Positions 1,287 through 8,242 of a stretch of DNA of 64,000 nucleotides are shown here, in pieces (positions within the stretch are counted from its first letter, which is position 1; the number at the start of each line of letters is the position of its first letter). The position numbers and the translations under genes were made by a program. Origin of the DNA: Hungatella sp. (GTDB lineage: Bacteria; Bacillota; Clostridia; Lachnospirales; Lachnospiraceae); the NCBI GenBank assembly GCA_009712635.1, contig WASS01000029.1, positions 417,276 to 481,275 on the forward strand, read 5' to 3'. The notes beneath the pieces were generated by a model that was not told where the DNA came from, searched no databases, and saw nothing but the letters and a program-made list of their open reading frames with translations.

Positions 1287-2960
1287 CTAAATATTTGTCA
1301 GCCGTTCAAATAAATTGTTTACATTGATCCGGCCGTATCCCCAGACATTATTCGGATAAACTTCTGAGGGGCTTCTTACGGCACCTCTTATAATTAACCG
1401 GTTGACGTCGTATCCGGTCAGGGAAGTATAGTTGCCTCTTGGTATTCCCCATTCAAGTACCATGGCAATAATTCCTGCTGCATGGGCGCAGGCGGCGCCG
1501 GTGCCGGTTGCAGTCCCGTACTGGTTGCCGGGAGCAGCACAGGGGATCTGGTAGCCGGGTGCTGCAATATCCGGCTTAACCAGACCGCTTCTGGTATAAC
1601 CCCTGCTGGATTCAGGCAGAATGCCATCGGTAAACTGATTATAAGCTGTTACGGTCAGCTGGTTGGCACCATTGCCCGGAGATGTGATGGTAGTATCCGG
1701 ATTAGGCGCTAAAAAATAGGTGCTGTCAGATAAGATTGAACCGCTAGGGAGCCAGCAATGAAACGAAAATGATTCATTTTCAAGACTCTGAGCCCGTAAA
1801 GACCATACACCAGGCTGAGGGTTTAAAAAACGGATTAAAATAAGCTGATCTCCGGTTTCCTCTTCAAAAATAATATTATTTACCCAGACAACACTCTGGG
1901 TGAAGATGAAATTGAATTTTCGACAGTCTGAGATGGAAGGATAAATACGCTGGGTCGATTCCCTGTTTGGCGTAGAGATATCAATGGAGATTCGTTCTGG
2001 TGCGTATGGCCAGATTTCCATCCAGAATTCTTTGTCATTTTCTCCAATTCTTAATTCGAAATCATTATAAAATGGCACAGTAGATGTACTGTTAAAATAA
2101 TGCCTTTGTGTATTTCCTTCATTTCCGGCGGAAGTAGACACACCAATTCCCGGAAGCTGTACCAGATAGGTTAAATAGCTGCTTAATGTACCTTTGCCAT
2201 CATGACTGCCCTGGCTTGTGCCAAGTGCAATACAAATAACAAGGGGAAGACTCAGTTTCTGTGCAGTCAAAAAGAGATATCTGATCCCCAGCAAAATGTC
2301 TGATTCCTGGAAGCAGTATGTATCTTTTGGTATGGTAAATAAATTTTTTAAGTTTTCTTTTGCATCTTTCAGCTTTACTATTACAATCTGGGAATTGGGA
2401 ACTACTCCGGCAAAGACCTGATCAGCACTGACGCTGCCGGCTGCAATGCTTGCCATAGCAGTTCCATGTCCGTTGGTATCAGTAGATGGAACAATGGAAA
2501 GTGGGTCTTCTGAGGTTAAGGCCAGATTGATGGACTCTCTGTTATATTCACTGCCAAAGGTAAATCCTTCCGGAATAGTTCCGGTCTGCACTGTCTGATC
2601 CCATATAGAAACGATGCGTGTGGTTCCGTCGTTATTGCGGAATGCGTTATGCTGGTAGTCAATGCCGGTATCCACAAAGCCCATTAAAATGCCCTGACCG
2701 GTCAGATTTAAAAAAGGATTTCTCTGAACCGTTCCAATCCCCGATTTTTCTATACTGATGGTGGATTCAAGAGTATAAAGTGAGGGGAAGGCGTTGTAGG
2801 GGTGTGTTCCTAAATCACAGGGATCCGTTCCAGTTGTGGGAATATGAAGCAGTGAGCTTCGTTCTGTAAGTGGAGTGATATTGTCTCCCGTATCATAGGA
2901 GGGGACCGAGATATTATTAATGATTAAGTCGTAATAATTATTATCTAGTATTTTATTCAA
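1287..2960 (-). CDS. Csp-like S8 family protein, copy 1 (predicted pseudoprotease)
   Basis: 557 residues with a subtilisin fold. Asp97 sits in VDTGID and His165 in NGHGTA, and the oxyanion-type loop reads SAGNEGN. At the nucleophile position the expected G-T-S-x-A reads G-T-G-A-A, so the catalytic Ser is Gly near residue 488 (codon GGC). About 200 residues between the oxyanion loop and this site form a beta-rich insert ending in SSRGYT..G.VKPDIAAPG, as in the jelly-roll-bearing Csp proteases of Clostridia. There is no signal peptide. The start is TTG behind AGGAGG with 7-nt spacing. It is the last of four tandem paralogues, 60 nt after copy 2. In C. difficile CspC the Ser is likewise Gly and the protein acts as a pseudoprotease in germinant signalling. 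A similar role here is inference. Confidence 0.85.
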   Translation of the reverse strand: MNKILDNNYYDLIINNISVPSYDTGDNITPLTERSSLLHIPTTGTDPCDLGTHPYNAFPSLYTLESTISIEKSGIGTVQRNPFLNLTGQGILMGFVDTGIDYQHNAFRNNDGTTRIVSIWDQTVQTGTIPEGFTFGSEYNRESINLALTSEDPLSIVPSTDTNGHGTAMASIAAGSVSADQVFAGVVPNSQIVIVKLKDAKENLKNLFTIPKDTYCFQESDILLGIRYLFLTAQKLSLPLVICIALGTSQGSHDGKGTLSSYLTYLVQLPGIGVSTSAGNEGNTQRHYFNSTSTVPFYNDFELRIGENDKEFWMEIWPYAPERISIDISTPNRESTQRIYPSISDCRKFNFIFTQSVVWVNNIIFEEETGDQLILIRFLNPQPGVWSLRAQSLENESFSFHCWLPSGSILSDSTYFLAPNPDTTITSPGNGANQLTVTAYNQFTDGILPESSRGYTRSGLVKPDIAAPGYQIPCAAPGNQYGTATGTGAACAHAAGIIAMVLEWGIPRGNYTSLTGYDVNRLIIRGAVRSPSEVYPNNVWGYGRINVNNLFERLTNI

Positions 2961-3020
2961 AATCAGGCCTCCTCACTGCACCAATATTAAGAATTAAAAC
3001 ACCCTTTCAAGACAACCGGA

Positions 3021-4691
3021 TCAGATATTGGTCAGCCTTCGAAACAGGTTATTTACATCAAGCCGGCCATATCCCCAGATGTTGTTTGGGTAAATGATAG
3101 AGCTGTCACGTACAGCTCCCCGGATCAACAGCCGGTTCACGTCATTTCCGGTCATGGATGTGTAATTCCCCCTTGGTATTCCCCATTCCAGTATCATGGC
3201 GATGGCTCCCGCTGTATGAGCAGCGGCGGCACCAGTTCCAGTCATGGTTCCGTATTGGTTTCTGGGTACCGCACAGGGAATCTGATATCCCGGAGCAGCA
3301 ATATCTGGCTTTATCAGTCCGTTTCTTGTATAACCTCTGCTGGATTCAATGAGAATACTGTCATTAAACTGATTATAGGCAGTAACGGTCAGCTGACTGA
3401 TTCCATCTCCGGGAGAGGTAATGGTAGTATCCGGATTTGGATTTAAAAAAAATGTATCATTTGTAATAATATCACCGGAAGGGAGCCAGGAATGAAATGA
3501 AATGGGCTCATTTTCCATGCTTTGTACCCGGATATTCCAGACTCCCGCAAGGGGATTTTGAAAACGAAGGAGAATCAGCTGATCGCCGGATTCTTCTTCA
3601 AATATAAAGTTATTTACCCACACGGTACTTCCTGTAAAAATAAAATCAAACTTTCTGCAGGAACCAATGGTAGGGTAAATGGGCTGAGTGGATTCTCTGT
3701 TTGGGGTGGAAACATCTATGGATACACGGCCCAGTGCATAAGGCCAGATTTCCATAAAAAACAAGGAATCATTTTCTCCTATTCTTAATTCAAAGTTATT
3801 ATAATAAGGCGGCGCTGTGGTACTGTTAAAATAATGACGTCTGTCATTGCCTTCATTTCCAGCTGAAACAGATATCCCGATACCCGGCAGCCTGGATAGA
3901 TAATTTAAATAGTTGCTAAGTGCATCTGTGCCGTCATGACCTCCCTGGCTGCTGCCAAGGGCAATGCAGATAACTAACGGACGGCTGGCATTCTGGGCAT
4001 ATGTTTCCAGATACCGGACACCCAGCATAATGTCAGATTCCTGGTAGCACAATACGTCCGGCTTTACAAAGTTCATACTCCTTAAATTCTGTTTGGGATC
4101 CTTTAGTTTTACAACAACCAATTCCGCTTCCGGCACAACACCGGTAAAGGAATTTTCCGGATTGTATCTTCCGGCAATGATGCTTGCAACCGAGGTTCCG
4201 TGTCCTACGGTGTCGACAGAAGGTACAATCGATAAGGGATCATCTGATCTCAGAGCAATATTAATGGATTCTCTGTTGTATTCTGTTCCATATGTAAATC
4301 CCACCGGCGGATTGTTACTTTGAATGGATTGATCCCAGATAGAAAGAATTCTGGAAGTATTATCATTGTATAGAAACGCTTCATGACTGTAATCGATCCC
4401 TGTATCAATCACTCCTACAATAATTCCCCGCCCGGTCAGATTTAAAAAAGGATTTCTCTGTACAGGACCAATCCCCGATTTTTCAATGCTGATGGTAGAG
4501 TTAAGTGTATAAAGAGTGGGAAATGTATGATATGGATATTCTCCAAGCAGGCATGGAGTTGAACCGGCTGCCGGAATATGAAGCAGGGAATGTCTGAAAT
4601 TAATCATGGTTATATTGTCTGAGTTATAGCTGGGAATTGAGACATTATTAATGATCAGATCATAATAATCGTTATCCAGAATCTTTTCCAA
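3021..4691 (-). CDS. Csp-like S8 family protein, copy 2 (predicted pseudoprotease)
   Basis: 556 residues, clearly paralogous to its three neighbours along the whole length. Asp96 (IDTGID) and His164 (VGHGTS) of the triad are present, as is SAGNEGN. The nucleophile motif reads TGTGAAAAH, placing Gly at about residue 487 instead of Ser. The same N-terminal block (KILDNDYYDLIINN) and C-terminal block (GYGRLDVNNLF) occur in all copies, and the beta-rich insert is retained. TTG start behind GGAGGA. Only 36 nt separate it from copy 3, so the two are almost certainly on one transcript. It may be a germination pseudoprotease or an inactive relative of intracellular S8 enzymes; proteolytic activity by the usual mechanism is unlikely. 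Confidence 0.85.
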   Translation of the reverse strand: MEKILDNDYYDLIINNVSIPSYNSDNITMINFRHSLLHIPAAGSTPCLLGEYPYHTFPTLYTLNSTISIEKSGIGPVQRNPFLNLTGRGIIVGVIDTGIDYSHEAFLYNDNTSRILSIWDQSIQSNNPPVGFTYGTEYNRESINIALRSDDPLSIVPSVDTVGHGTSVASIIAGRYNPENSFTGVVPEAELVVVKLKDPKQNLRSMNFVKPDVLCYQESDIMLGVRYLETYAQNASRPLVICIALGSSQGGHDGTDALSNYLNYLSRLPGIGISVSAGNEGNDRRHYFNSTTAPPYYNNFELRIGENDSLFFMEIWPYALGRVSIDVSTPNRESTQPIYPTIGSCRKFDFIFTGSTVWVNNFIFEEESGDQLILLRFQNPLAGVWNIRVQSMENEPISFHSWLPSGDIITNDTFFLNPNPDTTITSPGDGISQLTVTAYNQFNDSILIESSRGYTRNGLIKPDIAAPGYQIPCAVPRNQYGTMTGTGAAAAHTAGAIAMILEWGIPRGNYTSMTGNDVNRLLIRGAVRDSSIIYPNNIWGYGRLDVNNLFRRLTNI

Positions 4692-4727
4692 AAGACAGTC
4701 CTCCGGTCCATTTTTCCATATTTGCCG

Positions 4728-6401
4728 TTACAGATTTGTAAGCTGCTGAAAAACTTTATTTACGTCAAGCTGACCGTACCCCCAAAGGTTATTTGGATAT
4801 GTGTTAGCTGCACCGTGCCTGGCGGCTCTCAAAAACATTCGGTTAATATCATATCCGGTTAAAGTTGGGAGATTTTTTCTTACGATTCCCCATTCCAAAA
4901 TCATGGCTGCAGCACCGGCAGCATGTGCAGCAGCAGTACCAGTCCCCGTTGCGCTGCCGTATGAATTCCCTGAAACAGCACAGGGAAGCAAAAAACCGGG
5001 AGCGGCAATGTCTGGTTTGATCATACCTGTCGTTGTATAACCCCTGCTGGCATCTGCAAGAACACTGTCATTATATTGATTGTAAGCAGTAACTGTTAAC
5101 TGATGAGTCCCGTTTCCGGGAGAGGTTATGGTGACAGAGGAATCTGGATTTAAAAAGTAAGTATCATCGGACAGAAAATCCCCGTTGGGAAGCCAGCAGT
5201 GGAAGGTAAAAGGTTCTTCCTTCATTGACTGCACCCGCAGATACCACACTCCAGGCATGGGATCTTTAAACCGCATTACGATTACCTGATTACCTGTTTC
5301 ATCATCAAAAAGAATATTATTCACCCAAATGATGCTTTGGGCAAAAATAAAATTAAATTTTCTGCATTCATTCAGGATGGGATAAACTCTCTGCGTGGAT
5401 TCTCTGCTGGGAGTTGAAATATCAATGGATATCCGGCTTGTTGCATAAGGCCAGAGAACCATACAAAATTCTTTATCCTTTTCGCTGATCTTCAGCTCGA
5501 AATCATGATACCAGGGAATCTGGCTGGTATTATTAAAATAATGTCTGGCTTTGTTCCCCTCATTGCCAGCAGAAGTAACAAAACAGATTCCCGGATCTTG
5601 TGTTTTAGCTGTCATGAAACTGCTGATTGCCCCGTTGCCGTCATGACCACCCAGGCTGCTTCCCAGGCAGATACATATTACTATGGGTCTTGCCGCTTTC
5701 TGGGAAACTGACAGCAGATAACGGAGCCCCAGATAAATATCTGATTCCTGAAAACAGTAGGTATCTTCAGGAACAAAGAAAATTTTTTTCAGATTATTTT
5801 TTGCATCCTTTAGTTTTACTATAACAAGTTCTGATAATGGAACAACTCCTGAGAAAGAAAGGTCTGCGGAGGGTGATCCGGCAGCTATGCTGGCAATGGC
5901 AGTTCCATGCCCGTTGTTATCTGTGGTAGGAACCACAGACAGCGGATGGGAGGATAATAAAGCTTCATTTATCTGCTCATTTCTGTATTCAGTTCCAAAG
6001 GTAAAACTATCTGGAGGAGTTCCTTCCTGTATTGTCTGATCCCAGATGGAATAGATCCGGCTGGTACCGTCCGGATTTTGAAATGCCGGGTGTATGTACT
6101 CAATTCCGGTATCAACTACTCCGATCAGTACGCCTTTTCCCATGAGACCCAGATAAGAGTTTTGCTGAACGAGACCGATTCCTGATTTATCCAGGCTTAC
6201 CTCAGATTCCAATGCATATAAGGAAGGAAAGCTGTCATAGGGGTAAGTTCCCAGATCGCAGGGATCCGGGGACGCAATGGGTATATGGAGCAGAGAGTAG
6301 CGATCACTCAGCGGGGTTATATTATCGCCAGTGTCGTAACCCGATATTATTGTATTGCCCATAATCAGGTCGTAATAGTTATTGTCCAGAATTTTATTCA
6401 A
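4728..6401 (-). CDS. Csp-like S8 family protein, copy 3 (predicted pseudoprotease)
   Basis: 557 residues. Asp97 (VDTGIE), His165 (NGHGTA) and SAGNEGN are intact, while the nucleophile motif reads TGTGTAAAH, again Gly at about 488. It is the most divergent copy by eye: N-terminal MGNTIISGY replaces INNxSxPxY, WGIVRKNLP replaces WGIPRGNYT, and it ends in LTNL instead of LTNI. TTG start behind AGGAGGACTTTTA. A sigma-E-like promoter lies in the 101-bp gap upstream (6441-6468), so copies 3, 2 and 1 can be expressed without reading through from copy 4. Divergence among copies suggests selection for different partners or ligands, which is inference. Confidence 0.85.
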   Translation of the reverse strand: MNKILDNNYYDLIMGNTIISGYDTGDNITPLSDRYSLLHIPIASPDPCDLGTYPYDSFPSLYALESEVSLDKSGIGLVQQNSYLGLMGKGVLIGVVDTGIEYIHPAFQNPDGTSRIYSIWDQTIQEGTPPDSFTFGTEYRNEQINEALLSSHPLSVVPTTDNNGHGTAIASIAAGSPSADLSFSGVVPLSELVIVKLKDAKNNLKKIFFVPEDTYCFQESDIYLGLRYLLSVSQKAARPIVICICLGSSLGGHDGNGAISSFMTAKTQDPGICFVTSAGNEGNKARHYFNNTSQIPWYHDFELKISEKDKEFCMVLWPYATSRISIDISTPSRESTQRVYPILNECRKFNFIFAQSIIWVNNILFDDETGNQVIVMRFKDPMPGVWYLRVQSMKEEPFTFHCWLPNGDFLSDDTYFLNPDSSVTITSPGNGTHQLTVTAYNQYNDSVLADASRGYTTTGMIKPDIAAPGFLLPCAVSGNSYGSATGTGTAAAHAAGAAAMILEWGIVRKNLPTLTGYDINRMFLRAARHGAANTYPNNLWGYGQLDVNKVFQQLTNL

Positions 6402-6440
6402 TAAAAGTCCTCCTGTCTTATACTGAGGGCATATATGATA

Positions 6441-6468
6441 AGTTTATGCAGCAGGAATTCTAATATGA
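6441..6468 (-). promoter_or_regulatory. sigma-E-like sporulation promoter before copy 3
   Basis: Minus strand: TCATATT (6462-6468), 13 bp, CATAAACT (6441-6448). This matches the Bacillus sigma-E pattern (xATATT, about 13-15 bp, CATACAxT). The -35 heptamer and the spacing equal those before copy 4. Confidence 0.55.
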
Positions 6469-6502
6469 AAGGAGGGGGGAGAATGGAAAAATGTTACATC
6501 CT

Positions 6503-8176
6503 CTAAATATTGGTAAGTCGTTGAAACAATTCATTCACATCTAACATTCCATAACCCCAGGTATTATTAGGATATATAACAGAAGATTGCCGTCGTGCCC
6601 CGCGGGTAATCAGACTGTTGATTACATTACCTGACAGGGTGGTATAGTTGCCTCTGGGAATACCCCACTCTAAAATCATTGCAATAGCACCGGTGGCATG
6701 GGCGGTTGCAGCGCCTGTTCCGGTTAAGGTTCCAAATTGGTTTCCAGGAAGTGCACAGGGGAGCTGGTACCCTGGTGCGCTGATATCCGGCTTCACGAAA
6801 TTATTTCTGGAATAACCTCTGCTGGCCTCTGGTAAAATGCTGTCACTAAACTGATTATAAGCGGTGACTGTCAGCTGATGAGATCCATTACCAGGGGAGT
6901 TAATAGTTGTGTTGGGATTGGAATTTAAAAAGAACGTTTCATCGCTGATCAGGCTGCCCGCTGGAAGCCAGGAATGAAAAGCAAGCGGCTCTTTTTCCAT
7001 GCTTTGCACGTTAAAGCTCCAGATGCCCGGCATGGCATTTTGAAAGCGCAGCAGAATCAGCTGATCCCCGCTTTCTTCCTCAAAGCTCATATTATTAACC
7101 CATAAGACAGATGGGGTGAAAACAAACTTGAATCTTCTGCATTCCCCCAGTCCCGGACGTATGAGCTTAGTCGATTCCCGGTTGGGCGTGGAAATATCAA
7201 TGGAAAGCCTGCCAAGAGCAGATGGCCATATTTCCATGGAAAACATGCTGTCTTTTTCCCCGATTCGCAATTCAAACTGATTGGTAAATGGTTCCTGCTG
7301 TGTAAAATTATAATAATGTCTGCGGGTATTTCCCTGGTTTCCCGCTGAAACAGCGATTCCATAACCGGGAAGACGCACCAGATAATTCAAATAATTGCTG
7401 AAAGCACTATTGCCATCATGGGCTCCCTGGCTGCTTCCCATGGCAATGCAGATGGCAAGAGGGCGGTTTGCTTTCTGCGCAATGGAAAGAAGATAAGTTA
7501 TGCCAAGCATCAGGTCGGTCTCCTGATAGCAGGAAATATTATCTGGAACAAAAAACAAATCCTTTAGATTTTTCTTTGCCTCCTTCAGCTTAACAACTGC
7601 CAGTTCGGCGAAAGGAACAATTCCGGAAAAATTCTGTTCTTCATCCGTTGCTCCGGCAATGATACTGGCAATTGCGGTTCCATGGCCATCTTGGTCATTG
7701 GAAGGAACTATGGATAACGGATTGCCAGAGGCCAGAGCCAAATTGATCATGTCCCTTGAATATTCAGTTCCATATGTAAAATGTTCCGGTGGTGTTCCAT
7801 CCTGAACAGACTGATCCCATAAAGTCAGGATTCTTGAAGTGCCATCATGAAAGAGAAATGTATGGTGCTGATAATCAATGCCTGTGTCAATAATGCCCAC
7901 AATAATTCCCCGCCCGTTGAGATTTAAATATGGGTTGCGCTGTACGGCTCCGATTCCGGATTTTTCATGACTTACGGTGGAGGTAGGAGTATAAAGGGAG
8001 GGAAAGTTGTAATAAGGATATTTACCAAGATTACATGGATCAGCGTTTCCTACAGGAATATTCAGCAGAGAATGTCTGATATTTATAGGTGTGATATTAT
8101 CTCCTTCTTCATACAGAGGCACAGAGACGTTATTAATAATGAGATCATAGTAATTATTGTCCAGTATTTTTTCCAA
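6503..8176 (-). CDS. Csp-like S8 family protein, copy 4 (predicted pseudoprotease), first of the cluster
   Basis: 557 residues. Triad Asp97 (IDTGID) and His (DGHGTA) are present; the nucleophile motif reads TGTGAATAH, so Gly replaces Ser at about 488. The oxyanion-type loop is SAGNQGN here rather than SAGNEGN. TTG start behind AGGAGGCACCTTT. It is the promoter-proximal gene, with a sigma-E-like promoter about 40 nt upstream. In C. difficile the cspBA-cspC operon is sigma-E dependent and its products control activation of the cortex lytic enzyme pro-SleC. The same logic would make this cluster a mother-cell or spore-coat germination module. No SleC or active CspB gene is present in the window. 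Confidence 0.85.
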   Translation of the reverse strand: MEKILDNNYYDLIINNVSVPLYEEGDNITPINIRHSLLNIPVGNADPCNLGKYPYYNFPSLYTPTSTVSHEKSGIGAVQRNPYLNLNGRGIIVGIIDTGIDYQHHTFLFHDGTSRILTLWDQSVQDGTPPEHFTYGTEYSRDMINLALASGNPLSIVPSNDQDGHGTAIASIIAGATDEEQNFSGIVPFAELAVVKLKEAKKNLKDLFFVPDNISCYQETDLMLGITYLLSIAQKANRPLAICIAMGSSQGAHDGNSAFSNYLNYLVRLPGYGIAVSAGNQGNTRRHYYNFTQQEPFTNQFELRIGEKDSMFSMEIWPSALGRLSIDISTPNRESTKLIRPGLGECRRFKFVFTPSVLWVNNMSFEEESGDQLILLRFQNAMPGIWSFNVQSMEKEPLAFHSWLPAGSLISDETFFLNSNPNTTINSPGNGSHQLTVTAYNQFSDSILPEASRGYSRNNFVKPDISAPGYQLPCALPGNQFGTLTGTGAATAHATGAIAMILEWGIPRGNYTTLSGNVINSLITRGARRQSSVIYPNNTWGYGMLDVNELFQRLTNI

Positions 8177-8213: not shown

Positions 8214-8242
8214 TATATTATGCTGAAAAAAAGTGAATATGA
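8214..8242 (-). promoter_or_regulatory. sigma-E/K-like sporulation promoter before copy 4
   Basis: Minus strand: TCATATT (8236-8242), 13 bp, CATAATATA (8214-8222). The -10 also fits the sigma-K pattern CATAnnnTA. The predicted leader to the TTG start at 8176 is about 30 nt. Confidence 0.55.

Follow-up and report, generated by a model that had tools for sequence, protein, structure and literature searches.

A ten-member family of Csp-like proteins lacking the catalytic serine in a Lacrimispora genome, with a possible role in spore germination

The 64,000-nucleotide stretch of DNA analysed here (the window; C21:417276-481275 of genome G000, an assembly of 5.63 Mb in 30 contigs) carries four tandem genes for subtilases of the Csp family in which the nucleophile serine is replaced by glycine. 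They belong to a set of ten in this genome, which is a variant of the principle seen in CspC and CspA of Clostridioides difficile, distinguished by a glycine most simply of separate origin, a large copy number, the retention of the catalytic histidine and three cysteines (Cys48, Cys346 and Cys474). The reading that we favour, with a probability of roughly 0.55, is that these proteins are made in sporulation and sense or relay germination signals to a CspB-type protease and SleC. Copy 1 of the four is 96–98% identical to its counterparts in the named relatives Lacrimispora xylanisolvens and L. defluvii (records of the same or a near-identical genome may be omitted from this comparison), and Lacrimispora is a genus placed in Lachnospiraceae. 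The 25 genomes of the genus set were taken as Lacrimispora, and the 250 genomes of the family set, each representing a separate genus, as Lachnospiraceae.

The four tandem Csp-like paralogues are intact open reading frames (Table 1), as stated in a preliminary description of this DNA, and each is preceded by GGAGG 6–8 bases upstream of its start; copy 4 is the first transcribed. The same description held that the Asp and His of the triad are kept while Ser is replaced by Gly, which was confirmed in all four copies with a GGC or GGT codon at the site (Asp97, His165 and Gly488 in copies 1, 3 and 4; residues 96, 164 and 487 in copy 2). Its placement of this glycine at the nucleophile position, as in CspC, agrees with both the alignment to the C. 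difficile Csp proteins, in which Gly488 pairs with Gly485 of CspC and the glycine of copy 4 pairs with the nucleophile serine of CspB, and the model of copy 1 (predicted local distance difference test score 89.6), in which Gly488 opens the helix that follows strand 480–486. No serine lies within six residues of the glycine in copies 1, 2 and 4, and copy 3 has one, five residues before it; copy 1 has a cysteine three residues after the glycine, and copies 2, 3 and 4 have none nearby. A serine or cysteine adjoining the glycine and common to the ten family copies was looked for and not found, which argues against a shared alternative nucleophile. Because the nucleophile serine is replaced by glycine, the proteins are referred to as Csp pseudoproteases, rather than proteases.

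In Pfam, the window copies match Peptidase_S8 (PF00082) alone, with E-values of 2e-25 to 7e-34. Their top NCBIfam models are CspBA and CspC, with scores far under the curated cut-offs; the CspC model (NF040808, cut-off 675 bits) scores 270.8–278.7 bits on the window copies and 245–292 bits on all ten. Structural alignment of the copy 1 model spans residues 7–557 with CspC and residues 9–557 with CspA, and takes in both the prodomain and the jelly-roll insertion. The prodomain assignment rests on structure, because the Pfam CspB prodomain model gave no match in copy 1 even at E-values up to 1. The proteins therefore have the subtilase domain, the prodomain and jelly roll and the tree position (see below) of Csp proteins, without an intact Asp-His-Ser triad.

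In sequence, copies 1 and 4 as well as the family profile match the CspA domain of C. difficile CspBA (PDB codes 9pr8 and 9pr9) best, and in fold so does copy 1, with CspC close behind; all share the same deep lineage. CspA has Gln and Ala in place of His and Ser and is fused to CspB, whereas the proteins described here are single and keep His. With CspC (PDB code 6mw4) they share the Csp fold with prodomain and jelly roll, the glycine (G485 in CspC) and the Asp. However, CspC has lost both His and Ser, with Thr170 in place of His, whereas His is kept in all ten copies, and CspC is encoded beside cspBA rather than by ten genes at several places. CspB of Clostridium perfringens (PDB code 4i0w), an active protease with an intact Ser, also has the Csp fold and is 33% identical over 448 aligned residues of copy 1.

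A search of the G000 genome with PF00082 gave 25 partial matches, and reading of the loci yielded ten family proteins of 556–559 residues, all of which start with M-x-KILD; the other nine are 52–71% identical to copy 1. Thus, the amplification posited in the preliminary description stands, although the four window genes are not the whole set. The other S8 proteins from this search are three ordinary subtilases (L032-L034) and one CspB-type protein. The family genes are scattered over several places, and their neighbours look unrelated and are little informative (six neighbours scanned); one family gene adjoins a cell-wall amidase-like gene. The nucleophile position is Gly in nine of the ten copies and Cys in one (L027:3259-4935), with Asp and His present in every copy. 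A hidden Markov model (HMM) of the ten copies, applied to 75 loci from among the contig-scan matches and to the loci of G000, found 134 frames, one being the CspB-type protein of G000. All 129 family frames that span Asp and His have both residues, and the 126 frames covering the nucleophile site have Gly (116), Cys (6), Ser (3) or Ala (1), where near-identical strains are counted separately and split genes as two frames. An unusual enzyme, in which the retained Asp and His work with another nucleophile such as water or a cysteine, would be consistent with the invariance of these two residues and with the Cys or Ser in the orthologue group of L027:3259-4935, but the preponderance of Gly and the lack of a nearby Ser or Cys common to the ten copies make it improbable.

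In a 68-row alignment (A3), Cys48, Cys243, Cys346 and Cys474 are invariant and Cys216 nearly so. Cys48, Cys346 and Cys474 are missing from all 50 Ser-bearing rows read in other genera, and Cys346 and mostly Cys474 are also missing from the early-branching Gly rows of L140. The conserved cysteines possibly form disulfides or a metal site, and a disulfide staple of the prodomain is our guess. At another site, the oxyanion-hole Asn is replaced by Asp in L031, L085, L091, L094, L095 and L097, and also in L083:4159-5832.

Two trees bear on the origin of the glycine. In a 136-row tree from a short search, a clade of 82 rows (Shimodaira-Hasegawa-like approximate likelihood ratio test support, SH-aLRT, of 100) contains 78 Gly, 2 Ser, 1 Cys and 1 Ala rows, and three further Gly rows lie elsewhere, among Ser rows. 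A more careful tree was built from 78 chosen rows including CspA, CspB and CspC, with the root set by us at the CspB group. In this tree, the CspB-type protein of G000 (L026) groups with CspB of both C. difficile and C. perfringens (support 100/99), and the remaining rows form one shared lineage that divides into CspA plus CspC (100/99) and the Lachnospiraceae rows (100/98). The Gly clade, represented by 20 rows (100/99), lies inside the Lachnospiraceae rows, which are otherwise mostly Ser and in which the first forks are weakly supported; given the well-supported branches, the Gly label must change five times or more. Since the Gly clade is placed among mostly Ser-bearing rows, the glycine here and that in CspC probably arose separately, and the loss of Ser is most simply convergent with that of C. 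difficile CspC. The CspC-like interpretation in the preliminary description is therefore retained for the Csp likeness, the change from Ser to Gly and the amplification, whereas the resemblance to CspC itself is most simply convergent and, unlike CspC, the family keeps His. Extra changes from Ser to Gly outside the main Gly clade, among Ser-bearing relatives, are seen in L152, L157:76-1809 and L143:3271-4998.

One orthologue group (L027:3259-4935, L052, L056, L062, L063, L064, L086, L096 and L098) has Cys in six members and Ser in three, with Asp, His and Asn intact. In both trees, its rows (the L027 copy, L052 and L064) fall inside the Gly clade, a position that suggests that this group regained a potential catalytic nucleophile, and possibly catalysis; the rows of both trees, as well as the root of the 78-row tree, were of our choosing. 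The codons in the group are AGY and TGY, each one step from GGY, and Ser codons are mostly AGY (42 of 51 rows, one of them the CspB-type protein of G000). Codon use was considered as a test of a regained versus a retained Ser and is uninformative, because AGY is one step from GGY.

All 25 genomes of the genus match the family, with 6 to 18 matches each; G000 scores 12 in this count, so the match counts exceed the true number of members. Among the 250 Lachnospiraceae genomes, 157 contain a Csp-like match at E 1e-100. The 59 places read in other genera, which were hand-picked with high scores first and hence non-random (60 were fetched, and one nested within another was dropped), gave 67 family frames, 50 with Ser and 17 with Gly. 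At one of them, L140 (G133:C6:446200-453450), four Gly-clade copies stand in tandem. In the portions available of PMC6636752, PMC12880746 and PMC6021603, Csp proteins of Lachnospiraceae are said to have intact triads or to be catalytically competent or predicted active. The Ser rows fit this published view, and the Gly clade is the exception; no earlier description of the Gly clade was recognised in a literature search, as judged from the search results.

The ratio of nonsynonymous to synonymous substitution (omega) against the nearest orthologues is 0.03–0.06 for copies 1 and 2, 0.13–0.14 for copy 3 and 0.06–0.14 for copy 4, which points to strong purifying selection on the window copies. Synonymous sites are close to saturation in the three equal-length pairs of window copies (proportion of synonymous differences 0.77–0.80), and the duplications behind these pairs are therefore old. 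Decay in the G000 genome, which the preliminary description had argued against, is ruled out by these omega values (0.03–0.14), and the frames are intact. A family of functionless decaying duplicates would account for a few orthologues that are broken in other genomes (see below), but with such omega values and intact frames, and with the family present in all 25 genus genomes, it is scarcely credible.

The ten orthologue groups are conserved within (0.95–0.97) and distinct from each other (0.36–0.49 by region), with the divergence between groups highest in the linker (0.49) and the jelly roll (0.46) and lowest in the C-terminal subtilase part (0.36), a modest contrast. This pattern bears on whether the proteins could be structural or stabilising components of the spore, which scaffold the cortex or coat, or keep CspB and SleC inactive or anchored, with no signal sensing. 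The conserved cysteines, three of which are missing from every Ser row read in other genera, would suit such a disulfide-stapled protein, and C. difficile CspA controls the incorporation or stability of CspC in spores, according to the available portion of PMC6636752. Conservation within groups combined with distinctness between them is, in our judgement, beyond the need of a bulk structural protein, and a purely structural role is considered rather unlikely.

The pattern TCATA(A/T)T-N13-CATANNNT, which has the shape of a sigma-E promoter, is found upstream of six of the ten family genes. Two of these sites lie in the window (Table 1); copies 2 and 1, which come after copy 3, lack such a site and are probably transcribed by read-through. 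The G000 genome contains 14 exact sites, compared to 2 for a reversed-pattern control; six are at family genes and one is at spoIIIAA, a canonical sigma-E gene (site assigned with the gene start taken as the second Met). A wider form of the pattern is present in 52 of 106 distinct family upstream stretches, many of which come from near strains and are non-independent, versus 154 of 20000 200-mers drawn at random from these loci and 13 of 10600 shuffled sequences. The sigma-E-type promoters suggest that the family genes are expressed in the mother cell during sporulation; the csp operon of C. difficile likewise requires sigma-E, as reported in the portion of PMC3789822 available. Several copies have a further conserved box, roughly ATATCATATG, after the -10 element (for example, L027 3100-3258), which is possibly a regulator site.

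A link to sporulation is also seen across the family set, where spoIIIAA scores above the cut-off in all 157 genomes with a Csp-like match and in 10 that lack one; neither is present in the other 83, with a sub-cut-off spoIIIAA hit in 30 of these. The co-occurrence (Fisher p 1.5e-55, uncorrected for kinship) applies to all Csp-like matches at E 1e-100, whether active or inactive and with few candidates scored per genome, rather than to the Gly clade alone.

The preliminary description had proposed searching the genome for an S8 gene with an intact Ser and for sleC, and both are present. The CspB-type protein (C7:555622-557397; L026/L124:5620-7398) has 592 residues, with a GTSFATP motif, a complete triad and a Pfam match to the CspB prodomain. 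It is found in 24 of the 25 genus genomes (one match partial) and is missing from one that is 67% complete. The SleC homologue (C14:111492-112751, 420 residues), for which the match to SleC structure 9h68 has an E-value of 2e-130, occurs in all 25 genus genomes, in two of them as two pieces. The CspB-type gene overlaps the end of a gene for a 758-residue SpoIID-domain protein (C7:555619-559646; L124:5620-9647), and by our reading a permease-like gene precedes the pair.

The GerA-family gene of G000 (C5:173362-174732; L130:5363-6784) adjoins a gene that we read as IMP dehydrogenase-like, and no GerB or GerC neighbours were seen. GerB gave no match in G000, and in 9 of 25 genus genomes there are partial hits, none scoring above 27.4 bits and four of them over the Pfam cut-off; the two best, which were examined, read as an APC-type permease and a sodium:alanine-type symporter. 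Thus, GerB was not convincingly found in the genus from these sequence matches; GerC was not searched. A Csp pseudoprotease in a spore former without Ger receptors is also represented by the Csp locus of Paraclostridium bifermentans, where the sole gerA-like gene resembles spoVAF, according to the portion of PMC6199464 available. This species, by contrast, belongs to the Peptostreptococcaceae and has the cspBA-cspC arrangement, and the same portion of the source mentions no expansion.

In the mechanism proposed, the ten pseudoproteases would be made in the mother cell during sporulation and, because the nucleophile is Gly, would presumably keep the prodomain without self-cleavage. Their proposed location is the cortex/coat region, where they would form homo- or heterodimers in the manner of C. 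difficile CspC and CspA. There they would bind germination signals or pass them on and control the one CspB-type protease whose triad is intact; this protease would then activate SleC. Separate paralogues would tune the response to separate signals and replace the GerA-GerB-GerC membrane receptors. A more specific form, in which the genus swapped membrane GerA-type receptors for soluble, dimerising Csp pseudoproteases of separate origin, with each paralogue or pair tuned to a germinant and acting through a single CspB-type protease and a single SleC, and with one member having regained Ser or Cys, is tentative, and we are inclined to doubt it. The proteins could also be mother-cell products with a role other than germination, such as binding of peptides or peptidoglycan in spore assembly: sigma-E-type promoters indicate the mother cell and not germination, and the genes are scattered among unrelated-looking neighbours, with one beside the amidase-like gene. 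Such a role is harder to reconcile with the lineage shared with CspA and CspC and with the occurrence of the SleC homologue and the CspB-type protein in 25 and 24 of the 25 genus genomes, and is quite unlikely.

Several observations weigh against a role of the family in germination signalling. The histidine is kept, unlike in CspC and CspA, and the residues of the central CspC:CspA salt bridge, which are named in the available portion of PMC12880746, appear unconserved in our reading of the alignment. Each of the 25 genus genomes has one GerA-family gene (split in one), and Ger-type sensing is possible. The promoter pattern was derived from the family genes, so that spoIIIAA (exact form) and spoIVA (wider form) are its independent tests; it is absent upstream of spoIID, and occurs in 3 of 68 upstream stretches around members in other genera (one of the 68 being L026 of G000), most of which span only about 100–130 bases measured from the HMM match rather than the true start. 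Among the matches listed, three orthologues (G009, G021 and G013) have one internal TAA each; in strain ASCUSBR21 (L039) both copy 3 and copy 4 are split, one copy is split in L065 and one is truncated in L107. The ASCUSBR21 assembly (taken to be G024 from its coordinates) also has the split GerA gene, which makes sequencing error a possible cause in that strain. Stops are flagged in six of the 24 CspB-type matches and probably lie before the true start.

Germination through Csp pseudoproteases has so far been treated as a peculiarity of the Peptostreptococcaceae. Another family with a larger set of independent origin would show that pseudoproteases were put to this use more than once in evolution, and would give natural comparisons for the role of a dead active site. 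It would also offer other organisms in which to address questions of C. difficile germination, such as the ligands of the pseudoproteases and the switching of CspB.

Table 1. Pseudoprotease genes and sigma-E-type promoters in the window, and family members elsewhere in the genome.
Feature	Position in window	Strand	Details
Pseudoprotease copy 1	1287..2960	-	557 aa, TTG start; Gly488 codon GGC at 1497-1499
Pseudoprotease copy 2	3021..4691	-	556 aa, TTG start; Gly487 codon GGT at 3231-3233
Pseudoprotease copy 3	4728..6401	-	557 aa, TTG start; Gly488 codon GGT at 4938-4940
Sigma-E-type promoter TCATATT-N13-CATAAACT, upstream of copy 3	6441..6468	-	genome C21:423716-423743
Pseudoprotease copy 4	6503..8176	-	557 aa, TTG start; Gly488 codon GGC at 6713-6715
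Sigma-E-type promoter TCATATT-N13-CATAATAT, upstream of copy 4	8215..8242	-	genome C21:425490-425517
Family members outside the window			L029; divergent pair in L027; L028; L030; L031

Copy 1 is also 97–98% identical between G000 and three metagenome-assembled genomes titled Paenibacillaceae (L035, L037 and L038; SVDT, SVDS and SVDU records). These titles look wrong, and the genomes look Lacrimispora-like.

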